Shown: piece after piece, positions 267 to 52,406 of the stretch
How positions within the stretch are numbered: position 1 is the stretch's first letter
Layout: each line of letters begins with the position of its first letter
Origin: a virus
Strand: one strand, 5' to 3'
Length of the DNA: 52,438 nucleotides
Virus record (IMG/VR): IMGVR_UViG_3300010054_000044
Span: 1-52,438 of that record
The notes under the pieces: generated by a model
Seen by the model: only the letters and a program-made list of their open reading frames with translations
Database searches by the model: none
What the model was told of the DNA's origin: nothing
Translations under genes and position numbers: made by a program

Positions 267-328
267 TGGCGGAGGGACAGGGATTCGAACCCTGGATAGG
301 CTATTAACCTATGCCGGTTTTCAAGACC
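267..328 (-). repeat. attL: attL: 62-bp duplicate of the tRNA-Ser 3' part
   Basis: These 62 bases are identical to 52316-52377. In tRNA orientation they cover the anticodon-arm 3' side, variable arm, T arm, acceptor 3' strand and encoded CCA. Homology stops at 328/329, so this copy cannot make a tRNA. It is the displaced host 3' end left when phage attP rebuilt the gene at the other end. The two copies define the prophage borders. Confidence 0.95.
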
Positions 329-1760: not shown

Positions 1761-1971
1761 TCCCAAAGCCCCCATTGGCGGTTTGTTAGGCATTTCGGTT
1801 ACAAGGCAAACGTTAAACTGGTATTTGAATTCAGCATGTACCGCCTAGATAAGCGCTTCTATGCCCCAACGTATCAGCATTGATAGAAAAAGGGACAATT
1901 TCAAGAGCTAATCAGCCTTTTACAATCCGCTCGCTATGTCAGCATCGCTTAATTATTCTGTGGAAAATAAT

Positions 1972-2871
1972 ATGACAATTAATATTGCCCTAGCCACCTC
2001 GGAAGCAATTGTTTTGGGTTGTGATAGCCTCTCGAGTATGGCGGAACCAGTTTTCAAGGCCCGTGATGTGGAGCTCGTCATAGATGACAATGGGCGCCCA
2101 GTTCAAGATGAGCATGGCAACTTCGTCTTTAAAGGCATGGCATCGACGGCTGTAACCACAGTATTCGGCGGAGTTAGAAAGATGTTCTGCTTAAGTGAGC
2201 ATACAACTCAGGTTGCTGCTGTGACTGCGGGCCTAGCTATCCTTGAAAACATGACCATAGCTGAACACGCCAATAAATTTCGTCGAGAGAGTGGTAACAA
2301 TCTAACCACGGTGGAAGAGGTCGCAGGCGCTTTTCTCCAATACGTCAGAAATAAGTGGGAAATTACAGTTGGGTATATTGATTCACCAAACGAACAGTCA
2401 TTCGATGAGTACCCGAATGTAGAGTTTCTAATTGCTGGCTTTGAACCCAACGGTGAAGGATGTGTCTACAGGGTCGATGTGTTGAAAAATAGCATGGATC
2501 TGCAGTACGATGGCCAGCCCGGGATTGCATGGGCAGGACAAGCAAATTTTGTCCACAGGCTTCTCATCGGAGCAGACGGCTCTCTTGAGCATGATCTGGT
2601 TCATAACCGAGGAGTTGATCCCAATGTTTTTAATGAAGCTTTGCGAGTTAGTAAAACAAATATAGATTTTGCGAATCTTCCAACGCAATACGCTATCGAT
2701 TTTGTAGAGATGTTGGTCAATACTCAGTCAGGCATGCAGCGCTTTGAGCCAGGGATTGCTACAGTTGGCGGAAGAACCCACATCGGAGTCCTGAGACGAG
2801 GTGAAGAATTCACCATGCTCAATGAGCCACAGCTCATCCACAAACACACGGGATTCAATCATGATGATTAA
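1972..2871 (+). CDS. Proteasome-like Ntn hydrolase
   Basis: From the ATG at 1972 the protein is 299 residues. Removal of the initiator Met would expose a Thr. Numbering that Thr as 1, Asp17 falls in the VLGCDS strand exactly as in proteasome beta subunits and HslV. A Lys in GGVRKMFCL followed by VAAVTAG matches the Lys33 and Gly47 region of HslV, after an insertion of about 30 residues. This suggests a self-compartmentalising Thr protease fold, although it is longer than HslV or a beta subunit. No ATPase unfoldase is encoded nearby. An upstream ATG at 1936 lacks a Shine-Dalgarno and would bury the Thr. The stop overlaps the start of the next small gene. Substrate and activity are unknown. Confidence 0.7.
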   Translation: MTINIALATSEAIVLGCDSLSSMAEPVFKARDVELVIDDNGRPVQDEHGNFVFKGMASTAVTTVFGGVRKMFCLSEHTTQVAAVTAGLAILENMTIAEHANKFRRESGNNLTTVEEVAGAFLQYVRNKWEITVGYIDSPNEQSFDEYPNVEFLIAGFEPNGEGCVYRVDVLKNSMDLQYDGQPGIAWAGQANFVHRLLIGADGSLEHDLVHNRGVDPNVFNEALRVSKTNIDFANLPTQYAIDFVEMLVNTQSGMQRFEPGIATVGGRTHIGVLRRGEEFTMLNEPQLIHKHTGFNHDD

Positions 2872-3055
2872 CCTGTCGAATGCTAGCAGCTCTGTGTTTT
2901 CGAATACTTCCAGACCTCGAGATCCAAGCTTCTACCAAAGTTCTGGTTACGTTTCTACCTCGACGCAATTATCTGGAAAAGAGCGCCAACAGCCCTCAAG
3001 GCAAGAAACAGAAGCCGCTATGCGGGCTATGAAAAAAGCAGTGAGCAAGAAATAG
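2861..3055 (+). CDS. Small Ser-rich protein coupled to the Ntn hydrolase
   Basis: A 64-residue protein starts at tandem ATGs (2861 and 2864) inside the last codons of the proteasome-like gene, so the two are translationally coupled. The N-terminal half is rich in Ser, Asn and Thr; the C-terminal third is a charged helix ending MKKAVSKK. It does not end in the HbYX motif of proteasome activators. I do not recognise a family. Context makes it a candidate partner, inhibitor or substrate of the hydrolase. A terminator follows within 20 bases, closing a two-gene unit. Confidence 0.5.
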   Translation: MMINLSNASSSVFSNTSRPRDPSFYQSSGYVSTSTQLSGKERQQPSRQETEAAMRAMKKAVSKK

Positions 3056-3073
3056 CACATCGATACTATAGAC

Positions 3074-3098
3074 AAGGGCCGCTGATGCGGCCCTTTTG
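3074..3098 (+). terminator. Terminator of the hydrolase unit
   Basis: AAGGGCCGC (3074-3082) pairs with GCGGCCCTT (3087-3095) around a TGAT loop and is followed by a short T run. Confidence 0.85.
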
Positions 3099-3375: not shown

Positions 3376-3597
3376 TTGGACACTGAAACGTTACTGGGCA
3401 CAGCCTTCATCCTGCCAATGCTTGGGCTGCTGATCATGATCGGTATGCCCAAACATTGGCAAAATGTGCAGGGCTGGCTAATGGTGAGCTACCTGGGGAT
3501 ACCTGGCGCACTGATCGTTATTGCCCTGCTGGTGAACGTCCCTGTTCTCCTGTTTGGTGCGCTGTTCCTGCTAGGGATAGCGGCGGTCAGCCGCTAG
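3376..3597 (+). CDS. Small two-helix membrane protein
   Basis: A 73-residue protein starts at TTG, with GTGGAG upstream. Two hydrophobic segments (about residues 8-23 and 36-68, the second long enough for a hairpin) are joined by a short polar loop with KHWQN. The end overlaps the 3' end of the convergent giant gene by four bases. No family is recognised. It may be a lysogenic-conversion or superinfection-exclusion protein, which is a guess from position only. Confidence 0.5.
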   Translation: MDTETLLGTAFILPMLGLLIMIGMPKHWQNVQGWLMVSYLGIPGALIVIALLVNVPVLLFGALFLLGIAAVSR

Positions 3598-6500
3598 CGC
3601 GCCCTCGCCTCCTGCACTTGCTCGCCTAGCGCCCGCTGAATCTGGTTTTTCACCGCGTTCAATCGGTCAATGCGCTGACGTTTCACTTCGCCATCAAGGT
3701 TGGAGCGGCGGATGATATCGATCTGCTGGTTGATCGTATTTAAGCGCCGCTGTGCGCGGTTGAGCGGTAGCCGTAACGCCAGCATGTCCCGCTTGTTGGT
3801 AGCTACCTCGGCCGCATCGGCCAAGCGCCCCATTTCTCTCAGCTCTTTAGCATCCGAATAGGCGCGGTTCGCTTCGCGCAGCCCCTCATAGAAGATCGTG
3901 CCGTACTTGGTGTAGCGGTCTTCATCGCCCAGGTTGCGATAGAAGCGGCGCACCGGTTGATATTCGTACCAGCGCTGTGCTGGGTTCTCTACGCCAGTCG
4001 CTGCCCGCCACGCAACATCAGCGCTGGACGCTACCCATGTTCCCACCTGCCCGAAGTACCCCCCAATCAAATGATCTACTTGCACCGGCGATAGCGCTAA
4101 CGGGTTTTTATCCGGGTCGCCAATCGCACCAACGGTGCTGTTCAACGCACCGGAGATCCACTCGGCGGCTTTGCTGGTGTTCGCCCGACGGCGCAATTCT
4201 GGCGACAAGCGCTCCATGCCCATGCCTTCAATCGGTCGCCCGGTAAAGGCGTCATAGTTGGCGTAGATATCGAGCGCGGGCTGCATCATCTGCGGTACCG
4301 GCGAGAAGCTAAAGGTGTCGGTCATCATGTGGCCCAGGCGCTGCGCAAATAGCTTGCCCGTAGCTTTATCGTCCACAAACTGCTCGGTCATGCGCTCGGC
4401 TAGCGTAGCCATGGCGCCGACTTCAAACGGCTTGGGAATAAAGAAGGCTTGATCGCCAAAGCGCATGAACCAGTAGGTGTCCTTCTGCCAGTCCTCTAGC
4501 TTCTGATACTCCTCGTCGTCCTGGTTGTGCAGGTAGAGCGCAATAGTGGCTAGCGTCACGGCGCCGGTTACGGTCCAGAAGCGGGCGGCTGCCTGCTTGT
4601 CGGTGACGTTCGCCTTGCCCTTGCCGAAGGCTTCGGCCAGTACGCTTGCCCCTGGCTTCATGCCGCTGCGGTAAATCTTATCCAAGCCCTGAATGCGGGC
4701 GTTGAGGAACGGCACGATATCGATCAGGATGCGCACGGCAGGCCATGCACCGTGGGCACTAAAGTCGATCAAGTCGCGAGACTCAAACGCAGCGCGCAAT
4801 GCCCCTTTGTCGCGGTTTTGCGAGTAGATGGCGGCGCGGTTGAGGTTTTCGGTGGCGTTGTTAACGTCATTCCACCATGTCCAGCCAGCGCGCAGCACGC
4901 TGGGCACCATTGAGGGGCCGTTTACCAGCTTGGCGTTACGCATATTGCGGGTTAGCTGGGCGCGTAGCTCGTCGGGGTTGTTGCCGTACAGGTGGCCGAA
5001 GTTGAACGATGCGCCGCTGGCCAGCATTTGCGCCCGGATGCGCTCATCTTTATAGCTGCGCCCGCCCTCGATCACGTTCTTAAAGGCGTTCTTGCTCACG
5101 TCGCTGGTGGCCGATGCCTGCAAGCTGTCGCGGATTAAGTTGGCAATCATGAACTGCGGCGTGGTGGTAGTCAGGTTGGTAAATACGCGCTTAAAGCCGC
5201 GCATCACCTTCATGGCCATGCTGTTCATGCCGGGGTGAGCCAGTGCCGTCAGTGCCGTGAATACCAGCGGGTCGTCAATCTCATAAAACGCTTTCTGGCC
5301 GTTTTCCATGACGAACGTGGAGCGCTTGGTGTCGCGGTTGCTTTCCGGTACGCGCTCGGCCATGCCAAGCTTCTTGGCGTTCTCAATCGCTTGCGCGGCC
5401 GCTTGGTTCTTCAAGCTAGCGTCCAGTAGATGATGGAAGTTCATCATCGTGTTTTGAAGCAGGTCGTTCAGGTTCTGGGTGCCGCCTTTGAGCCGCTTGT
5501 AGGCCTGCTGGCGTGATAGGCCGCTGGTGGCCATCATGCCGCTTACCTGCTGGTCATCTTCGGCAAGGCGATAAAACGGAACGTAGAACTCCTCGCCCCA
5601 CATTTCCCGCTGCTCGCTGGTAATGATGCCGCTCTGCTCGGCCACGGCTAGCACATCGTCGCGGTACTGCTGGAACTCGTCGAACACTTCCTTATAGAGC
5701 TGCTGGCGGCTCCGGCCATCTTCCGTTTGCCCACGGTTCCATGCCTGCATGGCGTTAATGTCGCCTACGTCGAACAGATTTTCGCGCCCATCTTGGGCAA
5801 GGCGTGCCGCACGGTTACCGGCAATCCAGCCCATGAAGCGCTCAATCTCGGCAGCGCTACCCAAGCGGCCAAGCACTTCACCTAGGCCTTTGGCATCGCC
5901 GTCCTGCATTTCAATAATGCGCTCTTGCCGGTTCAGCTTAATGCGGCCGTTGTGAAGCATGGCGTGCAGGGCGCCGTTCGCCGCATTGCTCATGCGTGCC
6001 AGCACCCAGCTTGAGCGCTGAATGTTCTCGCCCAGCGCCGTTTCACCGTAAAGGCGCTCGTCCATTTCTTTCAGTGCGGCGTAGCGGTCTACCATGCCCT
6101 GGCGAATCTTGAGGCCTGCGCGGTCGGCCTTCTCTTTAAACCAAGCCACTGCCCGCTGTGGCGGCGTGCGGCTGCCGATCTTCGCAGCGGCGGCGCGGTC
6201 GGCGTCGGTGAAGTCGCTAAACGCATCCTCGAAGTTGGCGCGCTGTTTGCTGCGCAAGGCGTAACGCTGATCGTCGTCACTCTGATTCTCCGCCTGCTGC
6301 TTCCGCAAATACTCGCGGCTTTGCTCACCTAGCGCCAAGGCGTCGGTATACGTCCACGCCACTGAGGGGAATAGCTGACGTAGCAGCTCGCGAATTTTCG
6401 CCACGGCGCGCTGCCAAGCCTTGGGGCGATGGCCTTTCTCCAGTAGGTGGGCCACCATTTCCTCGGCAATGGTAATGCGGTCTTTGCGGTTCTCCGGGTC

Positions 6501-9500
6501 AAGGAACGGATAATCGCGGCGCACCTCGCGCAAGGCGTCGCGGCCCTCTTTGCTGTTCGGCAGATTGCGGTAGAGGTTGAGCATTACGCGGTCGAGGTCT
6601 TCGCCCAATACGGCACGCATACCCTTGTGGCCTACGGCTTCGTGAACGGCGGTACGCACGCCCTCTTGTACGTCATCGACGTTATCCGCAATCACATAGA
6701 GCTGGTCGCCCACGAACAGGCCACGCACGTCGCGGGGGTTCACGCCTTGTAACGCCATCATCATGATGGATTGCGCGGGCAGCTCGGTGGCGGACTGGAT
6801 CACGGTTACGCCAGATAGCTCGGGCGAGCTGGCCAGCGCGTCGCGGATATCTTCTGCACGCGGCGCTGGACGCAGCGCCTCACTACCCGGATTGAGCGAG
6901 TAGAGCTGAACACCTCTGGCCGTTTCGCGATGTTCTAGCGTACCCATTAGCCGATCAAAGGCGGGGCCAATGCTCTTGATTTCCTGGTCGTTGGGATAAG
7001 GGCCCTCGGGGTCACTGGAAATGTTGACTAGGTAGTCGTTGCGGATGCCTTGAGCTTCCAGTTTGTCACGTGTGTAACGCTCAAACGCACGGGCTGCCAT
7101 TTCAACCGGTGTTCCGAAGTAAGCCTTTGAGCGTGGGGCATCAAACTCGCGAGAGCGCTTTTCAAAGCCGCTATCTTTTAGGGCTTGCCGCATTTCTCGC
7201 CAGCGCTCGGCCAGCTCTGCACGCGCAGGACCATCGGTCATAAGCTCGGTCTGCATGGCATCCGTGCCCTGGCCATGCGGAATGAAGTTGTCCAGCGCGT
7301 GGAACCACTCATGCGCCAAACTGCCCGCACCCTCGGTCTTGGTCAGGTTAATGACGACTTGGCCGGGTTCGTAGTGCGCAGCTGCAGAACGCTTCCCGCC
7401 TTTGCCGCGCGCTCCGAAAGCGAGGCCTAGCGTGCCGTCCAGTGACATAGCTTTAGGCGGCACGCCCAACATGGACGATAGATCCATCAGCGCATCGTAG
7501 GCGCGGTTTAAATCAGCTTGGCGGCGTTGGCCTTCGACGTAGTTACCAAACTGTACGCCACGGAAGCCAAAGGCTTCCTGAAAGTCGTCAGGCGTTACAT
7601 CGCCTTCTCGCAGCTCCACGCCTTCGCGGGGTGCGTTGGTATCGCGGCGCATACGCGGCCCTGCCCGCATGGCGTCGATCTGCTGCTGAATGGCATCACG
7701 GTTCTCGGCAACGTAGTCAGCCGCGGCCGATGGCGAGTCAAAGCCACCTTGGAGGCGAATGACTCGGCTCCCTGCTTTGAAGGCAATAAAGCGCTCGCCT
7801 GTGCTGCGGTCACGGTAAACGCTTACCGGCGTCAGCTTGCTCTTAGGCTTAGCGTTGTCGCCCTCGATAGCGCGGGAAAGCACATTCGCCGCCTTGTCCC
7901 GCATTTCGTCGAAGTCAGTGGCCCAAATACCGGTATCACGACCGCGCTCATCTTTCAGACGATAAAACGTCGTGTTAGGGCTCACCTTTTCGCCGTTGAA
8001 CATGGAGTAGCCAGACCTAGCATCGACATTCCACTTCGAAGCTTTGGCATAGAGGCTGGGCTTTAGGGGCGCAATGAGCTCAGCGGTGCGCAATGCGCCC
8101 TCTAGCTGCTTGTACTCCCGAGAGCGAACGCGGTCCATCATGTCATCGATGGAAAGAGAGCCGTCCAGAACACGGCGGGCAACGTCTTGGGCCATCGTGA
8201 GGCCTTTCATCCACTGCTGAAGACGAAAAGCTTTACGCGGCTTTGCGGGGATCTGTGCGCGCATGACTGCGACGAAGGCGGCGGCTCGCGGGTCAACGCC
8301 CTCCTCGATCAGCTTGGTGTAGTTGGGTGCGGGGAATGCCTCGCTAAGCGTTGTGGCATCGGTCACTTCACTGTTTAGGCCAGACAGCACTTGGTTGACC
8401 TGATCTTTCCGAGCGCCTGCAATCTTCTCGCCGAAGTCCTCAATGCGCTCGGCTTGAGGAGCGCTATCGGTTGCCTCCGTGTTTTCCACCTGGTTGGTTT
8501 CTGGCGGGGACTCGGTCAAGTCCTGCTGACCTCGTGCGGCAGCAACGTCGGCGGTGCGATTGCTGCCGGTTAGATTGAAGTCGACGGCTTCCCGGTCTGC
8601 CTGGGCGCGCTGTGCCTGCTCACGTTGCTGACTGGCCTCAGCTTCTTCGGCCTGCTGCTGGGCCTGCTCGCGCTCGGCAAGCTCTTGCTCGGTGTAGGTG
8701 CTGAGTAGCGGCTCGTCGTCTACTTCTTGGGCTTGCTGTTCTGCTGGAGGCCGCTGGGCAGGTTCAGCTTGTCCTTGCCTTTCAGCTCCTTGTTCGCGTC
8801 GTTGAGTGCCTGGCTGAACATCCCTTTCAGGTGGTCGTTGTTGGGTACGCTGATTTTGATTTTGCCCTTGGAAGCCTGCATCGAAAATGTCCTGGTTGGT
8901 GGTGTCGTCGGCGAATAGCGCGCCGTTGGCCTCGCCTTCTGCGCGGCTGCGTACTGCTCGACCAATATAGCCAAAGGCGGCAGTCATTGCCTGTCGGCTG
9001 CGCATGTTGTTGTTAATGGCAATGGCGAGTAGCGCGGTGGTTTCCGGCACCGGATCGCTAAAGGCGTCGGTTTGGCGGGTCAGCTCGCGCACGCTAATGC
9101 CGTCTTGGCGGGAGCGGCGCACCAAGCGCACGGCGTCGTTGATCGTGCCGATGGCGTCCAGCGCGTCACGGCTGCCGGTTTCACGCGCTACCGCTAAATC
9201 AGCGGCGGCGGCTTGCAGTCCGGCAGCGAGGTTACGCATGTTCTCGGCCTGCTCGGTGACCATCTCCACCATATCGGGGTCTTGGTACGCGGCAGCAAAG
9301 ACGGCGCGCTGCATGCGTTGGCCGAGCTCGGGTGTGGCTTGGCCGTCTCGCGTGGTGTAGCGGCTGGCCTCGTTGTTGCCTAAGCGTTGCACAAAACCGC
9401 GCTGAAAGCCTCGGTTCGTTGCGGCCAGCGGGTCGCCGCTTTCGTCGGGCTGCCATGCTTGCAGGTCGTCAGCGGTTAGGCTGTCGGCGTCGGATTGGGC

Positions 9501-11957
9501 TTGTTCGTAGGCCGTCATGCCTGCCACTTGGCTTTCGTTAGCGCGGCGGGCGAAGTCGGCACGGTCAACGTTAGTGATGCGCTCGCGCACCAAGACCGGC
9601 TGCTGCATTTCATCGACGGCGCTGGGGTCAATGCCCTGGCGCTGGGCTTCGGCGCGCACGAACTCGCGGTAGCGCTGGGCTTGCGGGCTGTTCTGACCGT
9701 AGGCGGTGGTAATCGCCATGGTGCGGCCGTTGCCGGATTCCACTACGCCGTCGCTGCCGATAATCGGCGCACCGGTACCGGCGTCGTTGCTGCTGCCTAA
9801 GCGCTCCGGGTTCAGGCGGGCGGCGATGTTGCGCACTTGCACTTGGCTGTTCGCGTTTGTGCGGTCGCGGGGCTGTAGCTCCTGAGGGTAGCGTTGATTG
9901 ACGCGGCCATCAGGGGAGTTGGAAGCGGTTAGCTCTGACGCTTCGACGACGCGGAAGCGGGTTCGGATTGGCGTGTTGTCGGGCAGGTAAGTGGTTTGGC
10001 CGCGGCCACGGGTGCGAGCAAGCTGAGCAACACGCTCGGCGCTCTCTTGCTGCCGTGGGCGCTGCCCCTCTACCGCATTGCGTGCGCCTGTATCGGTGAA
10101 GCGTGCGCGCTCGAAAGACTGATCAAGGCCGTTATTGGCGTTTCCTGCGATTGGACCTTCACCGTAAATCACGTTATCACGGCCAAGGCTGCGGCGGTTG
10201 AGCGTGTCGGCCTGCTCCTGCTGAGTGCGCTGGCGGGCTTCAAACTGCTGGGGTGATTCGCCGCGAATGCTGTCACCGGTGCCGGGTGGTAATCGACCCA
10301 TGCCGCCACCAAGCAGGCCTGCCACCGGCTGCGGCTGCTCTGGGTCGGCCAGCTCGCCTTCCATCGGGCGTTCGCGGGTGCCAGTGGTGCGTAGGGCGCT
10401 GCGAAGGTTATTGGCGATATTCTCGGCGCGCTCCATGAGACGACTGGCTTGCTCAACATTGCCCGCTTCCAACGCAGCCTCTGCTCGCTCGGTAATCATC
10501 CGCATGTTGCGTAAGCGGGTACCGCCTTCAAAGCTAGAGCCTCGCGCTAAGGCTTGCAGGTCGTCGGCATCAGCCATGCCACGTTGTATGCGCAAACCCG
10601 TCTCGCTCGCCTGTTGCTGGCGTTGCGCTTGAGCTTCGGGAGACCGCTCAGCGGCTTGCTGTTCGCCTTGGGCCTGCTGTTCAGCGCCCAGCCCTGCCGT
10701 GGCTTGATCGAGGGCGTCGCCACCTTGGGCGGCGGCTTGCTCACGAGCTTGAGTAATGCTTTCTTGCGTGCGTGGCCGCCCTGCCAACGCACCGGTACCA
10801 CCGCCCATCACGCCGCCAATAAAGCCTTCTGACAGACCCGCAGCCGCCACACCTTCCATCGGGTTGCGGTTCGGGTCAGCGCCAATCTCGGCGACGGCAC
10901 TGTTAATACTGTACTGCCCCATGCCGCCCTGTCCGGTCTCCGCTGTGCCCTGAACAGCGGCCTGACGCACGGCAGCGCCCAGACGGCCGCCGCCAGCGCG
11001 GGTTCCTTTGGTGACCAGGTCATCCAGCACCTTGCCGCCATAACCGCCGAGTACGCCAGTGGTCAGCAGTAGCGCAGGGTCGCGCATTACTAGACTTTTC
11101 GCGCCTTGGCCGAGCTGCTCGCGGGCTTGCTGGCGTAGCTCGTCAACGCTGGCGTTGGGATTTTCATCGGCTAGCTGCCAGTACGTCTCTGCGAACGCCT
11201 GCGACTGGTCCAGCTCCTCGTCGGGCATGGCGAGGATTTCTTGATAGGCGCCGTCAGCAATCTGGCCGGTGTTCACGGCGGTTTCTACCGCGCCGTAGGT
11301 GCCAAGCTTTACGCCATCAGCCGTGCGTGAAGAGGCGAAGTCGCGCATTGCCTGCACGGCGGCGGCTTGCTGGCCTGCTTCGTCCAGCCCTTGGCGCGCT
11401 GCGTTGCGCCGTGCTGTGCGGCCAATCACTTTGCCGGTCAGGCTAAGGCCTACTCGTGAGCCACCGCCCGCCAAGCCGCCGGATGCTACCGCCTCGCCTG
11501 CTAAGCTGGCGGTTTGAAGTGCGATAGTGAGAGGGTTAGCGCCTTCGCCAAGTTTAAAATCCCACAAGCCAGAGCCAGTGCTTTCAAAGATTTGCTGCTG
11601 AATGGCGTCAGCCGCACGCGGGCTCATCTGCTCTAGCTGGCTGGCAGCACCTTCTCGGCCAAAATTGCCTAGGCCACGGCCAACGCCGGTGTATTCGTAG
11701 GAGAAGTCGCCCAGGCCTTGCGCGACGTTGTACGCGCCCATTTGCCCAGCGTCGACAAGATCGCCTACAAAGCCAGCTATGGTTTCGCTATTGCGGCCGC
11801 TGGTATCGGCAGACGGTGCGCCGGTTACCAACGCCTCAAACTGCTCGTCGCTATACGCACGAAACTCAGGTTGAACACGCAGGGTTTGTTTTAAGGTTTC
11901 GTCATCGACGTTACGGAGGGCGGGCGCCTGAGCGCGCAGGTTGTCTAGCAGTGACAT
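3594..11957 (-). CDS. Giant polyvalent virion protein (ParB-like, two zincin motifs, LPD38-type end)
   Basis: A 2,787-residue protein from the ATG at 11957 (GGGAG upstream; an in-frame TTG at 11978 is possible). The N-terminal 350 residues are Ala/Gly-rich. Residues about 700-800 resemble the DdrB-type ParB superfamily domain (motif SGNGRTMAI). A Gln-rich linker follows, then a domain with HEWFHALD near residue 1548 (LPD1-like zincin) and a second HExxH, HEAVGH, near 1770. The region around 2250-2520 resembles LPD38. Such polyvalent proteins are packaged and ejected by podoviruses of the Bcep22/F116/N4 kind and are thought to act in the infected cell. It is the last gene of the late operon. 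Individual domain functions are inferred from family knowledge, not demonstrated. Confidence 0.85.
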   Translation of the reverse strand: MSLLDNLRAQAPALRNVDDETLKQTLRVQPEFRAYSDEQFEALVTGAPSADTSGRNSETIAGFVGDLVDAGQMGAYNVAQGLGDFSYEYTGVGRGLGNFGREGAASQLEQMSPRAADAIQQQIFESTGSGLWDFKLGEGANPLTIALQTASLAGEAVASGGLAGGGSRVGLSLTGKVIGRTARRNAARQGLDEAGQQAAAVQAMRDFASSRTADGVKLGTYGAVETAVNTGQIADGAYQEILAMPDEELDQSQAFAETYWQLADENPNASVDELRQQAREQLGQGAKSLVMRDPALLLTTGVLGGYGGKVLDDLVTKGTRAGGGRLGAAVRQAAVQGTAETGQGGMGQYSINSAVAEIGADPNRNPMEGVAAAGLSEGFIGGVMGGGTGALAGRPRTQESITQAREQAAAQGGDALDQATAGLGAEQQAQGEQQAAERSPEAQAQRQQQASETGLRIQRGMADADDLQALARGSSFEGGTRLRNMRMITERAEAALEAGNVEQASRLMERAENIANNLRSALRTTGTRERPMEGELADPEQPQPVAGLLGGGMGRLPPGTGDSIRGESPQQFEARQRTQQEQADTLNRRSLGRDNVIYGEGPIAGNANNGLDQSFERARFTDTGARNAVEGQRPRQQESAERVAQLARTRGRGQTTYLPDNTPIRTRFRVVEASELTASNSPDGRVNQRYPQELQPRDRTNANSQVQVRNIAARLNPERLGSSNDAGTGAPIIGSDGVVESGNGRTMAITTAYGQNSPQAQRYREFVRAEAQRQGIDPSAVDEMQQPVLVRERITNVDRADFARRANESQVAGMTAYEQAQSDADSLTADDLQAWQPDESGDPLAATNRGFQRGFVQRLGNNEASRYTTRDGQATPELGQRMQRAVFAAAYQDPDMVEMVTEQAENMRNLAAGLQAAAADLAVARETGSRDALDAIGTINDAVRLVRRSRQDGISVRELTRQTDAFSDPVPETTALLAIAINNNMRSRQAMTAAFGYIGRAVRSRAEGEANGALFADDTTNQDIFDAGFQGQNQNQRTQQRPPERDVQPGTQRREQGAERQGQAEPAQRPPAEQQAQEVDDEPLLSTYTEQELAEREQAQQQAEEAEASQQREQAQRAQADREAVDFNLTGSNRTADVAAARGQQDLTESPPETNQVENTEATDSAPQAERIEDFGEKIAGARKDQVNQVLSGLNSEVTDATTLSEAFPAPNYTKLIEEGVDPRAAAFVAVMRAQIPAKPRKAFRLQQWMKGLTMAQDVARRVLDGSLSIDDMMDRVRSREYKQLEGALRTAELIAPLKPSLYAKASKWNVDARSGYSMFNGEKVSPNTTFYRLKDERGRDTGIWATDFDEMRDKAANVLSRAIEGDNAKPKSKLTPVSVYRDRSTGERFIAFKAGSRVIRLQGGFDSPSAAADYVAENRDAIQQQIDAMRAGPRMRRDTNAPREGVELREGDVTPDDFQEAFGFRGVQFGNYVEGQRRQADLNRAYDALMDLSSMLGVPPKAMSLDGTLGLAFGARGKGGKRSAAAHYEPGQVVINLTKTEGAGSLAHEWFHALDNFIPHGQGTDAMQTELMTDGPARAELAERWREMRQALKDSGFEKRSREFDAPRSKAYFGTPVEMAARAFERYTRDKLEAQGIRNDYLVNISSDPEGPYPNDQEIKSIGPAFDRLMGTLEHRETARGVQLYSLNPGSEALRPAPRAEDIRDALASSPELSGVTVIQSATELPAQSIMMMALQGVNPRDVRGLFVGDQLYVIADNVDDVQEGVRTAVHEAVGHKGMRAVLGEDLDRVMLNLYRNLPNSKEGRDALREVRRDYPFLDPENRKDRITIAEEMVAHLLEKGHRPKAWQRAVAKIRELLRQLFPSVAWTYTDALALGEQSREYLRKQQAENQSDDDQRYALRSKQRANFEDAFSDFTDADRAAAAKIGSRTPPQRAVAWFKEKADRAGLKIRQGMVDRYAALKEMDERLYGETALGENIQRSSWVLARMSNAANGALHAMLHNGRIKLNRQERIIEMQDGDAKGLGEVLGRLGSAAEIERFMGWIAGNRAARLAQDGRENLFDVGDINAMQAWNRGQTEDGRSRQQLYKEVFDEFQQYRDDVLAVAEQSGIITSEQREMWGEEFYVPFYRLAEDDQQVSGMMATSGLSRQQAYKRLKGGTQNLNDLLQNTMMNFHHLLDASLKNQAAAQAIENAKKLGMAERVPESNRDTKRSTFVMENGQKAFYEIDDPLVFTALTALAHPGMNSMAMKVMRGFKRVFTNLTTTTPQFMIANLIRDSLQASATSDVSKNAFKNVIEGGRSYKDERIRAQMLASGASFNFGHLYGNNPDELRAQLTRNMRNAKLVNGPSMVPSVLRAGWTWWNDVNNATENLNRAAIYSQNRDKGALRAAFESRDLIDFSAHGAWPAVRILIDIVPFLNARIQGLDKIYRSGMKPGASVLAEAFGKGKANVTDKQAAARFWTVTGAVTLATIALYLHNQDDEEYQKLEDWQKDTYWFMRFGDQAFFIPKPFEVGAMATLAERMTEQFVDDKATGKLFAQRLGHMMTDTFSFSPVPQMMQPALDIYANYDAFTGRPIEGMGMERLSPELRRRANTSKAAEWISGALNSTVGAIGDPDKNPLALSPVQVDHLIGGYFGQVGTWVASSADVAWRAATGVENPAQRWYEYQPVRRFYRNLGDEDRYTKYGTIFYEGLREANRAYSDAKELREMGRLADAAEVATNKRDMLALRLPLNRAQRRLNTINQQIDIIRRSNLDGEVKRQRIDRLNAVKNQIQRALGEQVQEARAR

Positions 11958-11989
11958 AGTGGCGTTGTCTCCCGACAAGGCTAGGTAGG

Positions 11990-37760: not shown

Positions 37761-37836
37761 ACGGCATCTCCTGTTTGATGCTAAATAATTTAGCTTTGCG
37801 CTAATTTAAAATCAAGCAAGGATTAGCATTTTGCAT
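37761..37836. promoter_or_regulatory. Right operator region with Cro promoter
   Basis: GCTAAATAATTTAGC is a perfect 15-bp palindrome at 37780-37794. A TTAGCATTTTGCAT site at 37823-37836 matches the left operator, and GCTAATTT lies between. On the minus strand TTGATT and TAAATT are 17 bp apart and overlap these sites, giving a repressible Cro promoter. Confidence 0.7.
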
Positions 37837-37872
37837 ATTTATCATCCTGCTAAATACTGCGAATATTCAGCC

Positions 37873-38619
37873 ATGGACGCTTATCAAATTCGCAAAGAAA
37901 ACTTGCTGAAGCTCATGCGTACGCGCACTAAAGCCGCGTGTGCCGACAAATGGGATACGTCAGCATCAACGCTCAGCCAGATAACATCGAAAAAGTCGGT
38001 GAGGAATCTGGGAGATGCCCTTGCACGAAAGATAGAAAGGGCTGAAGGCCTTCCGGTGGGCTGGCTAGATAGAACTCATGCCGATACTGATATCGCTAGT
38101 CATAACGCAGGGGTTAGCTTTCTCTCAGAGGCAAAAGCACACGACGATCTAGAGCTCCACCAAACTGAGATAGTTGATGAAGAAGCCCCCTTACGTGAGG
38201 GGGAAGTTGAGCTTCCTTGCTTTAGAGAGGTTGAGTTCGCGGCAGGAGATGGTCGCACCCAGGTCGTAGAAAACGGTGGCCACACTATGAGGTTCCCGCT
38301 TTCCAAGCTCGCTAAGCGCGGTGTTTCACCAGAACATGCAGCTTGCGCTACGGCTAGCGGTAGTTCTATGGAGCCAACTATTGCCGATGGCTCACCCATT
38401 GCGATCGACAAAGGCACTCGTCATATTATCGATGGGAAAATATACGCGCTGGATCACGGCGGCATGCTTCGCATCAAACGTCTCTACAAGCTGCCACTAG
38501 GTCGTGTGCGCCTGGTCAGCGACAACAGCGACGAATATCCCGAGGAAACGCACAGCCTTATGGGCCCAGATGCGCCGAAGATTATCGGACGTGTATTTTG
38601 GTGGGAAGTATTTGATTAA
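37873..38619 (+). CDS. CI-like repressor with S24 autoprotease domain
   Basis: A 248-residue protein from the ATG at 37873. The N-terminal HTH covers about residues 5-55 (CADKWDTSASTLSQITSKK). The C-terminal LexA/CI-type domain has ATASGSSMEPTIADGSP with the Ser nucleophile and LRIKRLYKL with the Lys, and ends in VFWWEVFD. RecA-dependent self-cleavage and prophage induction are expected from the family. No clear Shine-Dalgarno is seen; the start is close to the operators, so a leaderless or short-leader message is possible. Confidence 0.88.
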   Translation: MDAYQIRKENLLKLMRTRTKAACADKWDTSASTLSQITSKKSVRNLGDALARKIERAEGLPVGWLDRTHADTDIASHNAGVSFLSEAKAHDDLELHQTEIVDEEAPLREGEVELPCFREVEFAAGDGRTQVVENGGHTMRFPLSKLAKRGVSPEHAACATASGSSMEPTIADGSPIAIDKGTRHIIDGKIYALDHGGMLRIKRLYKLPLGRVRLVSDNSDEYPEETHSLMGPDAPKIIGRVFWWEVFD

Positions 38620-38645
38620 TAAAAATGGAAAACTAGGGAATTTTA

Positions 38646-39623
38646 ATGATATCTAAAGAGAGAAAAGCTTCATTTTATAGTTTATCTTTTGTTGGCACAC
38701 ATGTGCACAAGTTAAAAGCTAATGAATCCTACTCGCCCCTTTCATCCAAATTGGTCTCTAAGGCTCCCGATCTATTGATCAAAGGACTTTCAAAAGGAAC
38801 CTTTTACGAATCCGGAAAAGAAAAATTCGTAATCGTCAATTATGAAATTCATGATAAATACATACTAATATTATTCAATTTTACCACTGACCGCTACTCA
38901 GACCCAACTTATTACGATGAAAAATCAAACAAAAGAAATCAAATTACAAAATCGAATAGCGAGAGAATGGAATTTTCTTGCCATGTCATGATTAAAAGGA
39001 ATTTAGTAAATGATGAAAGTGAAATGATAGTTGAGAAAGTGTCTGGCTTTTCGAAGGCTCGACTGACTAATTTAATTAACAAAGCTTTTAGAGAATCTAA
39101 GTCAAAAAACCCTAGAGACTTTGAGTACAATCATCCGGATGGTTCTAAAGATGCCAAAGGAAACTCAAGGAAATGCAAGTTTAAATTCACTGTGCGTGTT
39201 GACGGCGTACCATCCAGTCAGATGAAAAATGATATTGAAAATGGGAAGATCTCTGGTCTTGAACTTGTATCAAGAAAAAAATTCAAAAAATGGGATCAAC
39301 ATGGACATTTTATTGAAAAATCTACTCATGTTAAGCTAGACTTCAACGCTCCGTCAGGTACCAGGATGGACAATCTAAAGGTTTTTCTTGGAAATATGAA
39401 AAAAGAAAAGCCTGATTTGGATCATGCAAAGCTACGATTCACTCCTCCCGGACAGACTAAGGGAACCGAATCTGCAGAGTTTGATCTATCTGATTCAGAT
39501 CCTACAAACTGTGAATATTACAATAAAACAGCTTCACTTAATTATAGCGCCGATAACACATCTTATACAGATATTATAAACGACATTAGAAATAGTATGA
39601 AGTATCACTTGAGGATAACTTAA
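38646..39623 (+). CDS. RexA-like soluble exclusion protein (candidate)
   Basis: A 325-residue, Lys/Asn-rich protein in DNA clearly richer in A+T than its neighbours. AGGGA lies six bases before the ATG. It has no enzyme motif. By eye it shares with lambda RexA an N-terminal strand-rich part and a later segment (THVKLDFNAPSGTRMDNLKV, then PDLDHAKLRFTPP) resembling the RexA stretch IKPKFKRDIKKVAKDI to FSDISLRAKD. It follows the repressor gene and is coupled (TAATG) to a membrane protein, as rexA is to rexB. Superinfection exclusion or abortive infection is inferred; a distinct two-gene defence is equally possible. Confidence 0.55.
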   Translation: MISKERKASFYSLSFVGTHVHKLKANESYSPLSSKLVSKAPDLLIKGLSKGTFYESGKEKFVIVNYEIHDKYILILFNFTTDRYSDPTYYDEKSNKRNQITKSNSERMEFSCHVMIKRNLVNDESEMIVEKVSGFSKARLTNLINKAFRESKSKNPRDFEYNHPDGSKDAKGNSRKCKFKFTVRVDGVPSSQMKNDIENGKISGLELVSRKKFKKWDQHGHFIEKSTHVKLDFNAPSGTRMDNLKVFLGNMKKEKPDLDHAKLRFTPPGQTKGTESAEFDLSDSDPTNCEYYNKTASLNYSADNTSYTDIINDIRNSMKYHLRIT

Positions 39624-40189
39624 TGCTATCGCAAACAATAGTAAGGCCATACGCCTACCTAAAAATACAGCACCATTCAAAATGGGTAGTGGACTGGGGC
39701 ATCCCTCTCATTTTAGCCATATTAATTACTTTAATTACTGGCTTGGGGGATTTATATTCTGAAAAACATCTATCCTGGAAGTTTTTAGAGGATAACATTG
39801 CTAGCTTAGCTGGCATTCTTCCTGGATTTTATATTGCCGCCTTAGCTGCAATTGTGGCCTTTAATAGAAATGATATAGATGAACACATGCCTGAGCCAAC
39901 ACCTATCATCAAAGATTATCTAGGCGACATTATCTCTTTAACTAGAAGGCGCTTTTTGGCTCTTACATTTTCTTTTTTAACAGCTGAGTCAATCACATTA
40001 ATGATTTTAATTGGTCTTGGCCCCTCATTAAGCAGCATTATCGAACACCTCATAAACAATGAGCGCCTCAGTACAGGGATGTGGTACGGATATATTTTCA
40101 TACTTTACACAATTTTTTCTCAGCTTGTAACAGTAACTTTTTTGTGCCTCTATTACTTGGGCGAACGGCTCCACCAACCAGATCCATGA
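39623..40189 (+). CDS. RexB-like membrane protein (candidate)
   Basis: A 188-residue protein with about four hydrophobic segments: residues 25-42, 58-78, 107-130 and 148-176. The second contains ASLAGILPGFYIAALAAIVAF, comparable to LSSYAGTMIAILIAALTFLI of RexB, and the last ends LCLYYLGERL where RexB ends FQLYNLTREQE. It is AT-rich and translationally coupled to the upstream soluble gene. A pore-forming effector of an exclusion system is the simplest reading. Confidence 0.55.
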   Translation: MLSQTIVRPYAYLKIQHHSKWVVDWGIPLILAILITLITGLGDLYSEKHLSWKFLEDNIASLAGILPGFYIAALAAIVAFNRNDIDEHMPEPTPIIKDYLGDIISLTRRRFLALTFSFLTAESITLMILIGLGPSLSSIIEHLINNERLSTGMWYGYIFILYTIFSQLVTVTFLCLYYLGERLHQPDP

Positions 40190-50944: not shown

Positions 50945-51166
50945 ATGGACCTGTTATTAACGCCAGGTGAGATAGAAACCCTGACTGGCCGCAAGCGAAC
51001 CAAGGAGCAATGCGCCGCGCTTGATGCCATGGGGGTGCGCTGGAAGATCAACGCCAGCGGCGCACTGATCGTTGGTCGTCGGCATGTAGAGCAAGTGCTG
51101 TGCGGCGAGAACGTCAGCCAAACACCAGAAACCAAGCGACCTAATTTCGAGGCCTTACACGCATGA
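50945..51166 (+). CDS. DUF4224 protein, excisionase candidate
   Basis: A 73-residue protein, LLTPGEIETLTGRKRTKEQC, then MGVRWKINASGALIVGRRHV: the DUF4224 pattern of small proteins placed directly before phage integrases. A winged-helix-like fold and role in directionality of recombination are inferred from this context. Overlaps int by four bases. Confidence 0.75.
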   Translation: MDLLLTPGEIETLTGRKRTKEQCAALDAMGVRWKINASGALIVGRRHVEQVLCGENVSQTPETKRPNFEALHA

Positions 51167-52182
51167 CGCAGGAGAACCCAGGCATCCCCCGGGTGTATTG
51201 GAAAAGTGGCGCATGGCGCTATAAGTGCAACGCCCGCCAGAAGGCACTGGTGGGCAAAAGCTGGATACGCTTGGGAGAAACCGCCAAGGAAGCCCAAGCT
51301 GCCTATGAGCAGTGGCAAGAGCGGCTATTTCCCAAGGCAGGCATGGGCCGCATATTCGACCGTTATGAAGCGGAGATCATCCCCGCCAAGCCTGCCGAAG
51401 CGACACGACGCTCCAACCTGCAGGAGCTCAAAAAGCTGCGCGCTGTGTTTGCCGAGTGCGAGCCAGGCGATATAACGGTTCACGACATTTATCGTTATAT
51501 GGATGCCCGCGGCGTTCAGTCGAAAACGCAGGCCAACCACGAGTTGGCTCTGCTCAAACACATCTTCCGGTACGCCCAGCGCTGGGGAATCGTGGAACAC
51601 AACCCCGCCGATCCGGTGACCAAGTTCAAGCTCAAGCCACGTGACCGCTATATCACCCACGCAGAGTTTAGCCGCTTTCTAAAATTCACCTCTCCATGGG
51701 TACGTCGCTACGCCCTACTGAAATACAAAACCGGACTACGCCAACGTGACCTGCTCACCCTCCGACTGGATCAGCTCACTCCGGACGGCATCGTGTTACG
51801 CAGTAGCAAGGCAGGCAAGCAGGCCGTCATTCCCTGGGATGATGAGCTGAGGCGTTTAGTGCATGAGATAAAGGCCGACAATCTAGGTCGTGGCAAGCAA
51901 GGCCCCACGTTGTTCTGCAAGCGGGACGGTATGCCCTACAACAAGGATAAGTTTCACAGCCGCTGGCAGTACGGGATGCGTAAGGCAATGCATGAGGGCC
52001 ACGTCGAGCGGTTTACCGAGCATGATATCCGAGCCAAGCACGCGACCGATGCCGATGAGCAAGGCTATGACGCCATGACCAATTTGCAGCACAGCGACCG
52101 GCGAACGACTGAGGTCTATCTACGTGCTAAGCGGGTGTTGACGGTAAGCACGTTGGGGGCGGGAGAGTTCCTAGAAGATTAG
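51163..52182 (+). CDS. int: Tyrosine integrase
   Basis: A 339-residue protein. An N-terminal arm-binding domain is followed by a core-binding SAM-like domain (about residues 60-150). The catalytic set is Arg in KTGLRQRDLLTL, Lys in SSKAGK, His and Arg in FTEHDIRAKHATD, His in NLQHSDRR and Tyr in TTEVYLR. It lies next to the intact tRNA-Ser and coupled to the DUF4224 gene. Confidence 0.93.
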   Translation: MTQENPGIPRVYWKSGAWRYKCNARQKALVGKSWIRLGETAKEAQAAYEQWQERLFPKAGMGRIFDRYEAEIIPAKPAEATRRSNLQELKKLRAVFAECEPGDITVHDIYRYMDARGVQSKTQANHELALLKHIFRYAQRWGIVEHNPADPVTKFKLKPRDRYITHAEFSRFLKFTSPWVRRYALLKYKTGLRQRDLLTLRLDQLTPDGIVLRSSKAGKQAVIPWDDELRRLVHEIKADNLGRGKQGPTLFCKRDGMPYNKDKFHSRWQYGMRKAMHEGHVERFTEHDIRAKHATDADEQGYDAMTNLQHSDRRTTEVYLRAKRVLTVSTLGAGEFLED

Positions 52183-52315: not shown

Positions 52316-52377
52316 TGGCGGAGGGACAGGGATTCGAACCCTGGATAGGCTATTAACCTATGCCGGTTTTCAAGACC
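52316..52377 (-). repeat. attR: attR core within tRNA-Ser
   Basis: A 62-bp segment identical to 267-328. Its right edge, 52377, falls in the anticodon stem; bases to the right are the host 5' half of the tRNA. Confidence 0.95.
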
Positions 52378-52406
52378 GGTGCATTCAACCGCTCTGCCAT
52401 CCCTCC
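52316..52406 (-). tRNA. tRNA-Ser(UGA)
   Basis: A 91-base gene with encoded CCA. The acceptor stem is GGAGGGA/TCCCTCC, the anticodon loop holds TGA, the long class II variable arm is ATAGGTTAATAGCCTAT-like, and the T loop is GGTTCGAATCC. The 3' part comes from the phage and the 5' half from the host. It remains intact after integration. Confidence 0.97.

Follow-up and report, generated by a model that had tools for sequence, protein, structure and literature searches.

What use would a temperate phage have for a proteasome-like hydrolase when no unfoldase is encoded beside it? This question is raised by a two-gene unit at positions 1,972 to 3,055 of the IMG/VR virus record IMGVR_UViG_3300010054_000044, which was analyzed over its full 52,438 nucleotides (positions 1 to 52,438; hereafter, the window). 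An initial annotation, made from the sequence alone, had read this unit as a prophage-encoded threonine hydrolase coupled to a small partner, an interpretation that our computational analysis supports in part. Sequence comparisons indicate that the enzyme-partner pair is a widespread mobile cassette of phages, phage satellites, and plasmids, and is not peculiar to the window prophage. The interpretation that we favor, and which we regard as having an even chance of being correct, is that the pair consists of an unfoldase-free threonine hydrolase and a dedicated, co-translated partner (an inhibitor, assembly factor, or substrate) that together serve the lysogen or carrier.

In the 299-residue open reading frame (ORF) of the enzyme, with the Thr after the initiator Met numbered as residue 1, we find the Thr, the Asp at position 17, and the later Lys of the HslV VKK pattern (residue 69, or Lys-70 when Met is counted) that had been pointed out in the initial annotation. 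Thr-1, Asp-17, Ser-18, and the Lys-33 equivalent are identical in 88/88 distinct homologues. Six of these (L050-L055) were picked by a pattern containing the Thr and Asp, so that 82 cases of conservation are free of selection bias; in L045, a more distant relative outside the set of 88, the Asp-17 position is occupied by Glu as judged by eye. A second in-frame ATG lies upstream at 1936, but homologues nevertheless begin at the Met-Thr start. On the basis of this conservation pattern, Thr-1 would probably be active as the nucleophile after Met removal. A model of the window enzyme built with AlphaFold2 (AF2) from an alignment of 13 homologues (mean predicted local distance difference test score (pLDDT) 78.6, predicted template modeling score (pTM) 0.74) predicts an N-terminal nucleophile (Ntn)/proteasome core, and Foldseek comparison of this model with the PDB gives Anbu (5lox) as the best match (E 6.1e-7), followed by 20S proteasome subunits. 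Similarly, when an E. coli-type prophage homologue is modeled (33-row alignment, pLDDT 85.8, pTM 0.82), the result is matched to proteasome subunits with an E value of 2e-4. Neither of the two outcomes that the initial annotation had named as fatal to its reading, a predicted fold other than Ntn hydrolase or a lack of conserved Thr, Asp, and Lys in homologues, was therefore obtained. Asp-17 and the Lys of the window enzyme are separated by 51 residues, compared with 15 for HslV and a median of 18 across the wider family, which places the size of the insertion, initially put at 30 residues, at about 33-36; spacings of 51-56 are confined to the window branch. Scans of Pfam, NCBIfam, PHROGs, and PADLOC returned nothing usable for either window protein, and a sequence search of solved structures in the PDB gave only chance matches. 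Moreover, no AAA+ gene is seen beside the module in the window, or among the annotated neighbors inspected in homologous loci, in line with the lack of an unfoldase that had been noted.

The small gene is coupled to the enzyme gene well beyond the window. In all relatives read from the close group, the start of an ORF of 64-69 residues falls inside the final enzyme codons, with the same geometry as the overlapping, Ser-rich gene of the window, and in wider kin a short ORF, often unannotated, is located 3' of the enzyme gene. Counting as partners those ORFs of 34-110 residues that start no more than 40 nt from the enzyme stop codon, we find one at 78/81 enzyme genes, ranging from Halomonas to streptococcal satellites, compared to 231 of the 573 other long genes (40%) at the same loci; the 81 enzyme loci are related to one another, and these counts are given without a formal probability. 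When a strong ribosome-binding site is also required, partners are counted at 40/81 enzyme genes relative to a baseline of 12%, many partners overlapping the upstream gene instead of having such a site. Values of the ratio of nonsynonymous to synonymous substitution rates (dN/dS) for the window and its relative L001 are 0.12 for the enzyme and 0.04 for the small ORF, and informative close pairs give 0.04-0.14 for the small ORF, similar to the enzyme. In P. aeruginosa, pairs that are very close give 0.4-0.7, and one streptococcal pair gives 0.28; these values rest on a handful of changes and carry little information. These substitution ratios in the informative close pairs show purifying selection on both ORFs, and this selection, together with the arrangement at the loci counted above, means that the pairing exceeds chance. 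Partners are short (mostly 34-69 residues), mostly basic, and variable in sequence, with Ser-richness being limited to the window branch and partners elsewhere being Lys-rich. L029, L137, and L052, the enzymes whose C-terminal tails are longest, are not accompanied nearby by a separate partner ORF of the usual size, which suggests that they are natural enzyme-partner fusions. At L141, an overlapping frame (7338 onward) seems to take the place of the partner, and it has segments that are hydrophobic and membrane-like. Two distant enzyme paralogues are present at separate loci in one genome (G1132), and downstream of each is an ORF of about 105-110 residues, joined by an ATGA overlap at one locus (L057) and starting 9 nt past the stop codon at the other (L058).

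Close relatives of the enzyme are found in Vreelandella sedimenti (95%), in a second Halomonas-type phage (75%), and in P. aeruginosa temperate phages including LESphi2 (42%). A distant genome match (L025) led to a much larger group of kin, phrog_5990, the PHROGs profile of which matches wider homologues with E values of 1e-90 to 1e-152; the window protein lies outside its detection and the Pseudomonas phage relative is detected weakly (E 2e-4). These kin occur in phages of Providencia, Stenotrophomonas, Porphyromonas, and Streptococcus, in streptococcal satellites, on plasmids of Rhizobium, Mesorhizobium, Ruegeria, Pantoea, and Enterococcus, in at least 128 IMG/VR contigs, and in 22 of 5426 E. 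coli genomes; they are sparse and scattered in genomes (2/275, 3/369, and 9/398). Carriers of the enzyme family have hosts among the Proteobacteria, Firmicutes, and Bacteroidetes. The block that runs from the enzyme start codon to the terminator, inclusive, is 94% identical over 1130 bp between the window and L001, and their homology ends no more than 88 bp upstream and, on the other side, about 60 bp past the partner gene. Judged from such alignments, the enzyme-partner pair is moved as a cassette that occupies cargo positions. The module adjoins the integrase/attP in some relatives, follows lysin-type genes in L109 and L132, stands behind CI-type repressors in L121, L136, and E. coli L062 (in the last of which the annotated enzyme ORF starts 42 nt past the repressor gene), and forms the last genes of streptococcal satellites. 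At the E. coli post-repressor spot, the repressor is present in 13 genomes, all of which carry the enzyme gene, leaving no variation for a hotspot comparison. In the window itself, a CI-like repressor is followed by two same-strand genes (37831-40189, + strand) that match the PADLOC candidate defense pair PDC-M53A/PDC-M53B (E 7e-46 and 6e-53), and other phages therefore place the module where the window phage keeps a candidate defense system.

In the mechanism that we propose, the cassette would be self-contained and borne by a temperate phage, comprising a leader, a proteasome-like N-terminal threonine hydrolase, a small partner, and a terminator. Removal of Met would expose Thr-1 as a nucleophile working with Asp-17 and Lys-33, and the small protein, translated last from the shared message through its overlapping start, would be the dedicated partner, probably binding the enzyme by way of a short, fast-changing segment and serving as its inhibitor, assembly factor, or substrate. 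Because no unfoldase is encoded, the enzyme may need none, and its targets are probably unfolded or specific peptides. Retention of the pair would be explained by a function in the lysogen or in the carrier of the element, with protection against other phages being likeliest. Superinfection exclusion is the likeliest role on circumstantial grounds, namely the position of the module and the phenotype of LESphi2, a phage that carries it: PAO1 lysogens of LESphi2 exclude LESphi3 (efficiency of plating <1e-9) and lower plating of LESphi4 (0.017), in one direction only (PMC3544612). We also put forward, as a less likely possibility, that the cassettes constitute a widespread, unfoldase-free, proteasome-like anti-phage (superinfection exclusion) system carried by prophages, satellites, and plasmids, in which a hypervariable, disordered partner, adapting to phage triggers, would hold or guide the conserved threonine hydrolase. 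No proteasome-like prophage defense system turned up in literature searches.

Several observations weigh against the interpretation that we favor. Exclusion by LESphi2 could stem from its repressor or from another gene, and the module proteins have no significant match in PADLOC-DB 2.0.0. A motif common to all partners reaches a log-likelihood of 115.8 versus 96.7-108.2 in shuffles, which is too weak to be clear, so that the partners may not all be homologous. In addition, L049, L055, and L141 have neither a clear small partner nor a long tail replacing it, and neighboring genes are unrelated across loci, making guilt by association weak.

The partner might instead be a dedicated peptide substrate, which the Ntn hydrolase would cut or ligate in a connectase-like manner to release a functional peptide. 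A short, unstructured protein would be a natural substrate for an enzyme without an unfoldase, co-translation would supply the right dose, and connectase, a specific ligase that acts on a specific tag, is among the proteasome relatives (PMC8665760). The partners share no recognition motif, however, and no secretion signal or transporter was noticed beside the pair; we consider this explanation somewhat unlikely. An overlapping two-gene unit on phages, satellites, and plasmids, with a small, basic, and probably disordered second product, also resembles a protease toxin and its antidote, with the enzyme kept blocked by the disordered partner and released when the element is lost or a phage infects, as in addiction or abortive infection; one streptococcal satellite even has the enzyme near a RelBE pair. 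Here the partner lies downstream, searches of Pfam and PHROGs reveal no DNA-binding domain in it, and the L029, L137, L052, and L141 enzymes have lost a separate partner yet keep their catalytic residues. We know of no Ntn-type toxin, and such an addiction module seems unlikely. A general role in host fitness or protein quality control, unrelated to phage competition, would suit a relative of quality-control proteases but fits poorly with the lack of an unfoldase and with a distribution as sparse and mobile as that described above, and is in our judgment improbable. Finally, a virion morphogenesis protease for capsid or scaffold maturation, as might be imagined for a phage-encoded peptidase-like protein with a few copies inside late operons (L129 and L027), is very improbable and was rejected on the basis of genomic context and the existence of plasmid copies, most copies being outside the head operon, beside attP, lysin genes, or a repressor, and LESphi2 having its own Clp-type head protease.

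The window comprises a complete temperate phage in integrated form, as read from the integrase and the perfect 62-bp repeat inside tRNA-Ser genes (267-355 and 52316-52406) at both ends, and the prophage location given in the initial annotation therefore stands. The two-gene unit is placed just inside the left prophage end (Table 1), and in the circular phage form attP and an endonuclease I gene would separate it from the nearby integrase. The product of this endonuclease gene (867-1760, + strand) is predicted to have a C-terminal Excalibur calcium-binding domain. The conserved segment upstream of the enzyme gene is probably its promoter/leader, although a promoter scan of this segment recognized no consensus promoter. 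As initially claimed, a terminator closes the unit: the sequence AAGGGCCGC-TGAT-GCGGCCCTTTT gives a GC-rich hairpin and T run, the surrounding 66 nt are strongly folded (z -2.8), and the element is retained in two relatives, with an identical stem and an altered loop in L006. It is not among the terminators listed by a pattern scan.

Table 1. Coordinates of the two-gene unit and associated prophage features in the window.
Feature	Position	Strand	Basis
attL core, 62-bp perfect direct repeat in tRNA-Ser(TGA)	267-328		Direct repeat search; pairs with 52316-52377
Leader (probable), conserved, 5' of enzyme gene	1883-1971	+	88 bp, 76% identity to L001 (alignment)
Proteasome-like Ntn hydrolase gene (predicted fold), 299 aa, Met-Thr start	1972-2871	+	ORF; AF2 model; Foldseek
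Thr-1 codon, predicted N-terminal nucleophile after Met removal	1975-1977	+	Invariant in 88/88 distinct homologues
Asp-17 codon (residue 18 counting Met)	2023-2025	+	Invariant in 88/88 distinct homologues
S3-S4 insertion, approx. residues 27-65, partly low model confidence	2050-2166	+	AF2 per-residue confidence; Asp-Lys spacing
Lys-33-equivalent codon (residue 70 counting Met)	2179-2181	+	Invariant in 88/88 distinct homologues
Gene of small partner (64 aa; basic, rich in Ser), overlapping enzyme gene by 11 nt	2861-3055	+	ORF; same geometry in homologues
Intrinsic terminator closing two-gene unit	3074-3097	+	Sequence; folding; relatives
Phage integrase	51163-52182	+	phrog_1 integrase match, E 1e-40
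attR core, second 62-bp repeat copy in tRNA-Ser	52316-52377		Direct repeat search

On the other side of the unit, a single ORF of 2794 residues (3594-11978, - strand) ends adjoining the module and probably encodes a very large phage protein. Among the plasmid homologues, multiubiquitin and ThiF (E1-like) genes are located a few kb away from the enzyme genes of three Rhizobium loci (L039, L040, and L041) and one Mesorhizobium locus (L029), with DUF6527 and ClpP-like genes also being near the enzyme at the Rhizobium loci. These multiubiquitin and ThiF neighbors occur in two differing arrangements, perhaps implying that the neighborhood is meaningful.

The constant partner gene, the apparent fusions, and the cargo positions make the question of function testable in terms of a binding partner, a target, and lysogen protection, and the partner is the first concrete clue to what this enzyme family works with. 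If the proposed exclusion role is true, a proteasome-type protease would take part in phage competition without an unfoldase across proteobacterial, Firmicutes, and Bacteroidetes hosts.

Among known systems, Anbu provides the best PDB fold matches of the window model (5lox and 5nyw) and is likewise an Ntn hydrolase without a dedicated unfoldase. It has only 10-12% identity to the window enzyme, however, its insertions differ, and no PDB sequence match places the window enzyme in the Anbu family. Anbu has chromosomal operon partners, which are absent at the window module. E. coli HslV (ClpQ) has Thr-1 and Asp-17 in the same register in a weak alignment and its Lys in the same V-x-K setting; HslV works with HslU, whereas the window module has insertions and no HslU, and the enzyme neither matches the Pfam Proteasome family nor gives an hhalign probability above 2-4%. 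RexAB-type exclusion operons, which have no sequence relation to the module, resemble it in arrangement as two-gene cargo of temperate phages, and in one E. coli prophage group the module is right behind the repressor. Fuchs, Alva, and Lupas (2021) described 22 families of proteasome homologues, phage-borne ones included, and reported no genomic context or co-occurrence pattern pointing to their function (PMC8665760). Of these, PMI-5 has an unstructured S3/S4 insertion and an H3/H4 insertion and is limited to Proteobacteria, while PMI-4 has insertions after H1/H2 and in H3/H4 and is broadly distributed, including phages (PMC8665760). Both share the proteasome-like Thr-1, Asp-17, and Lys-33 core of the window enzyme and phrog_5990. 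Matched by described features only, the window enzyme is probably PMI-5, given the window-branch spacing and the helices of its model, and the phrog_5990 kin are probably PMI-4, given helices 101-214 and 287-360 in the E. coli homologue model. Among the citing papers found in the library searched, none is about these families as judged by its title, and the survey describes neither the small partner nor the cargo position for PMI-4 and PMI-5. As far as can be told, then, the enzyme itself is of an already catalogued kind, and because no functional context has been reported for it there, we take the partner gene and the cargo cassette to be what is new.
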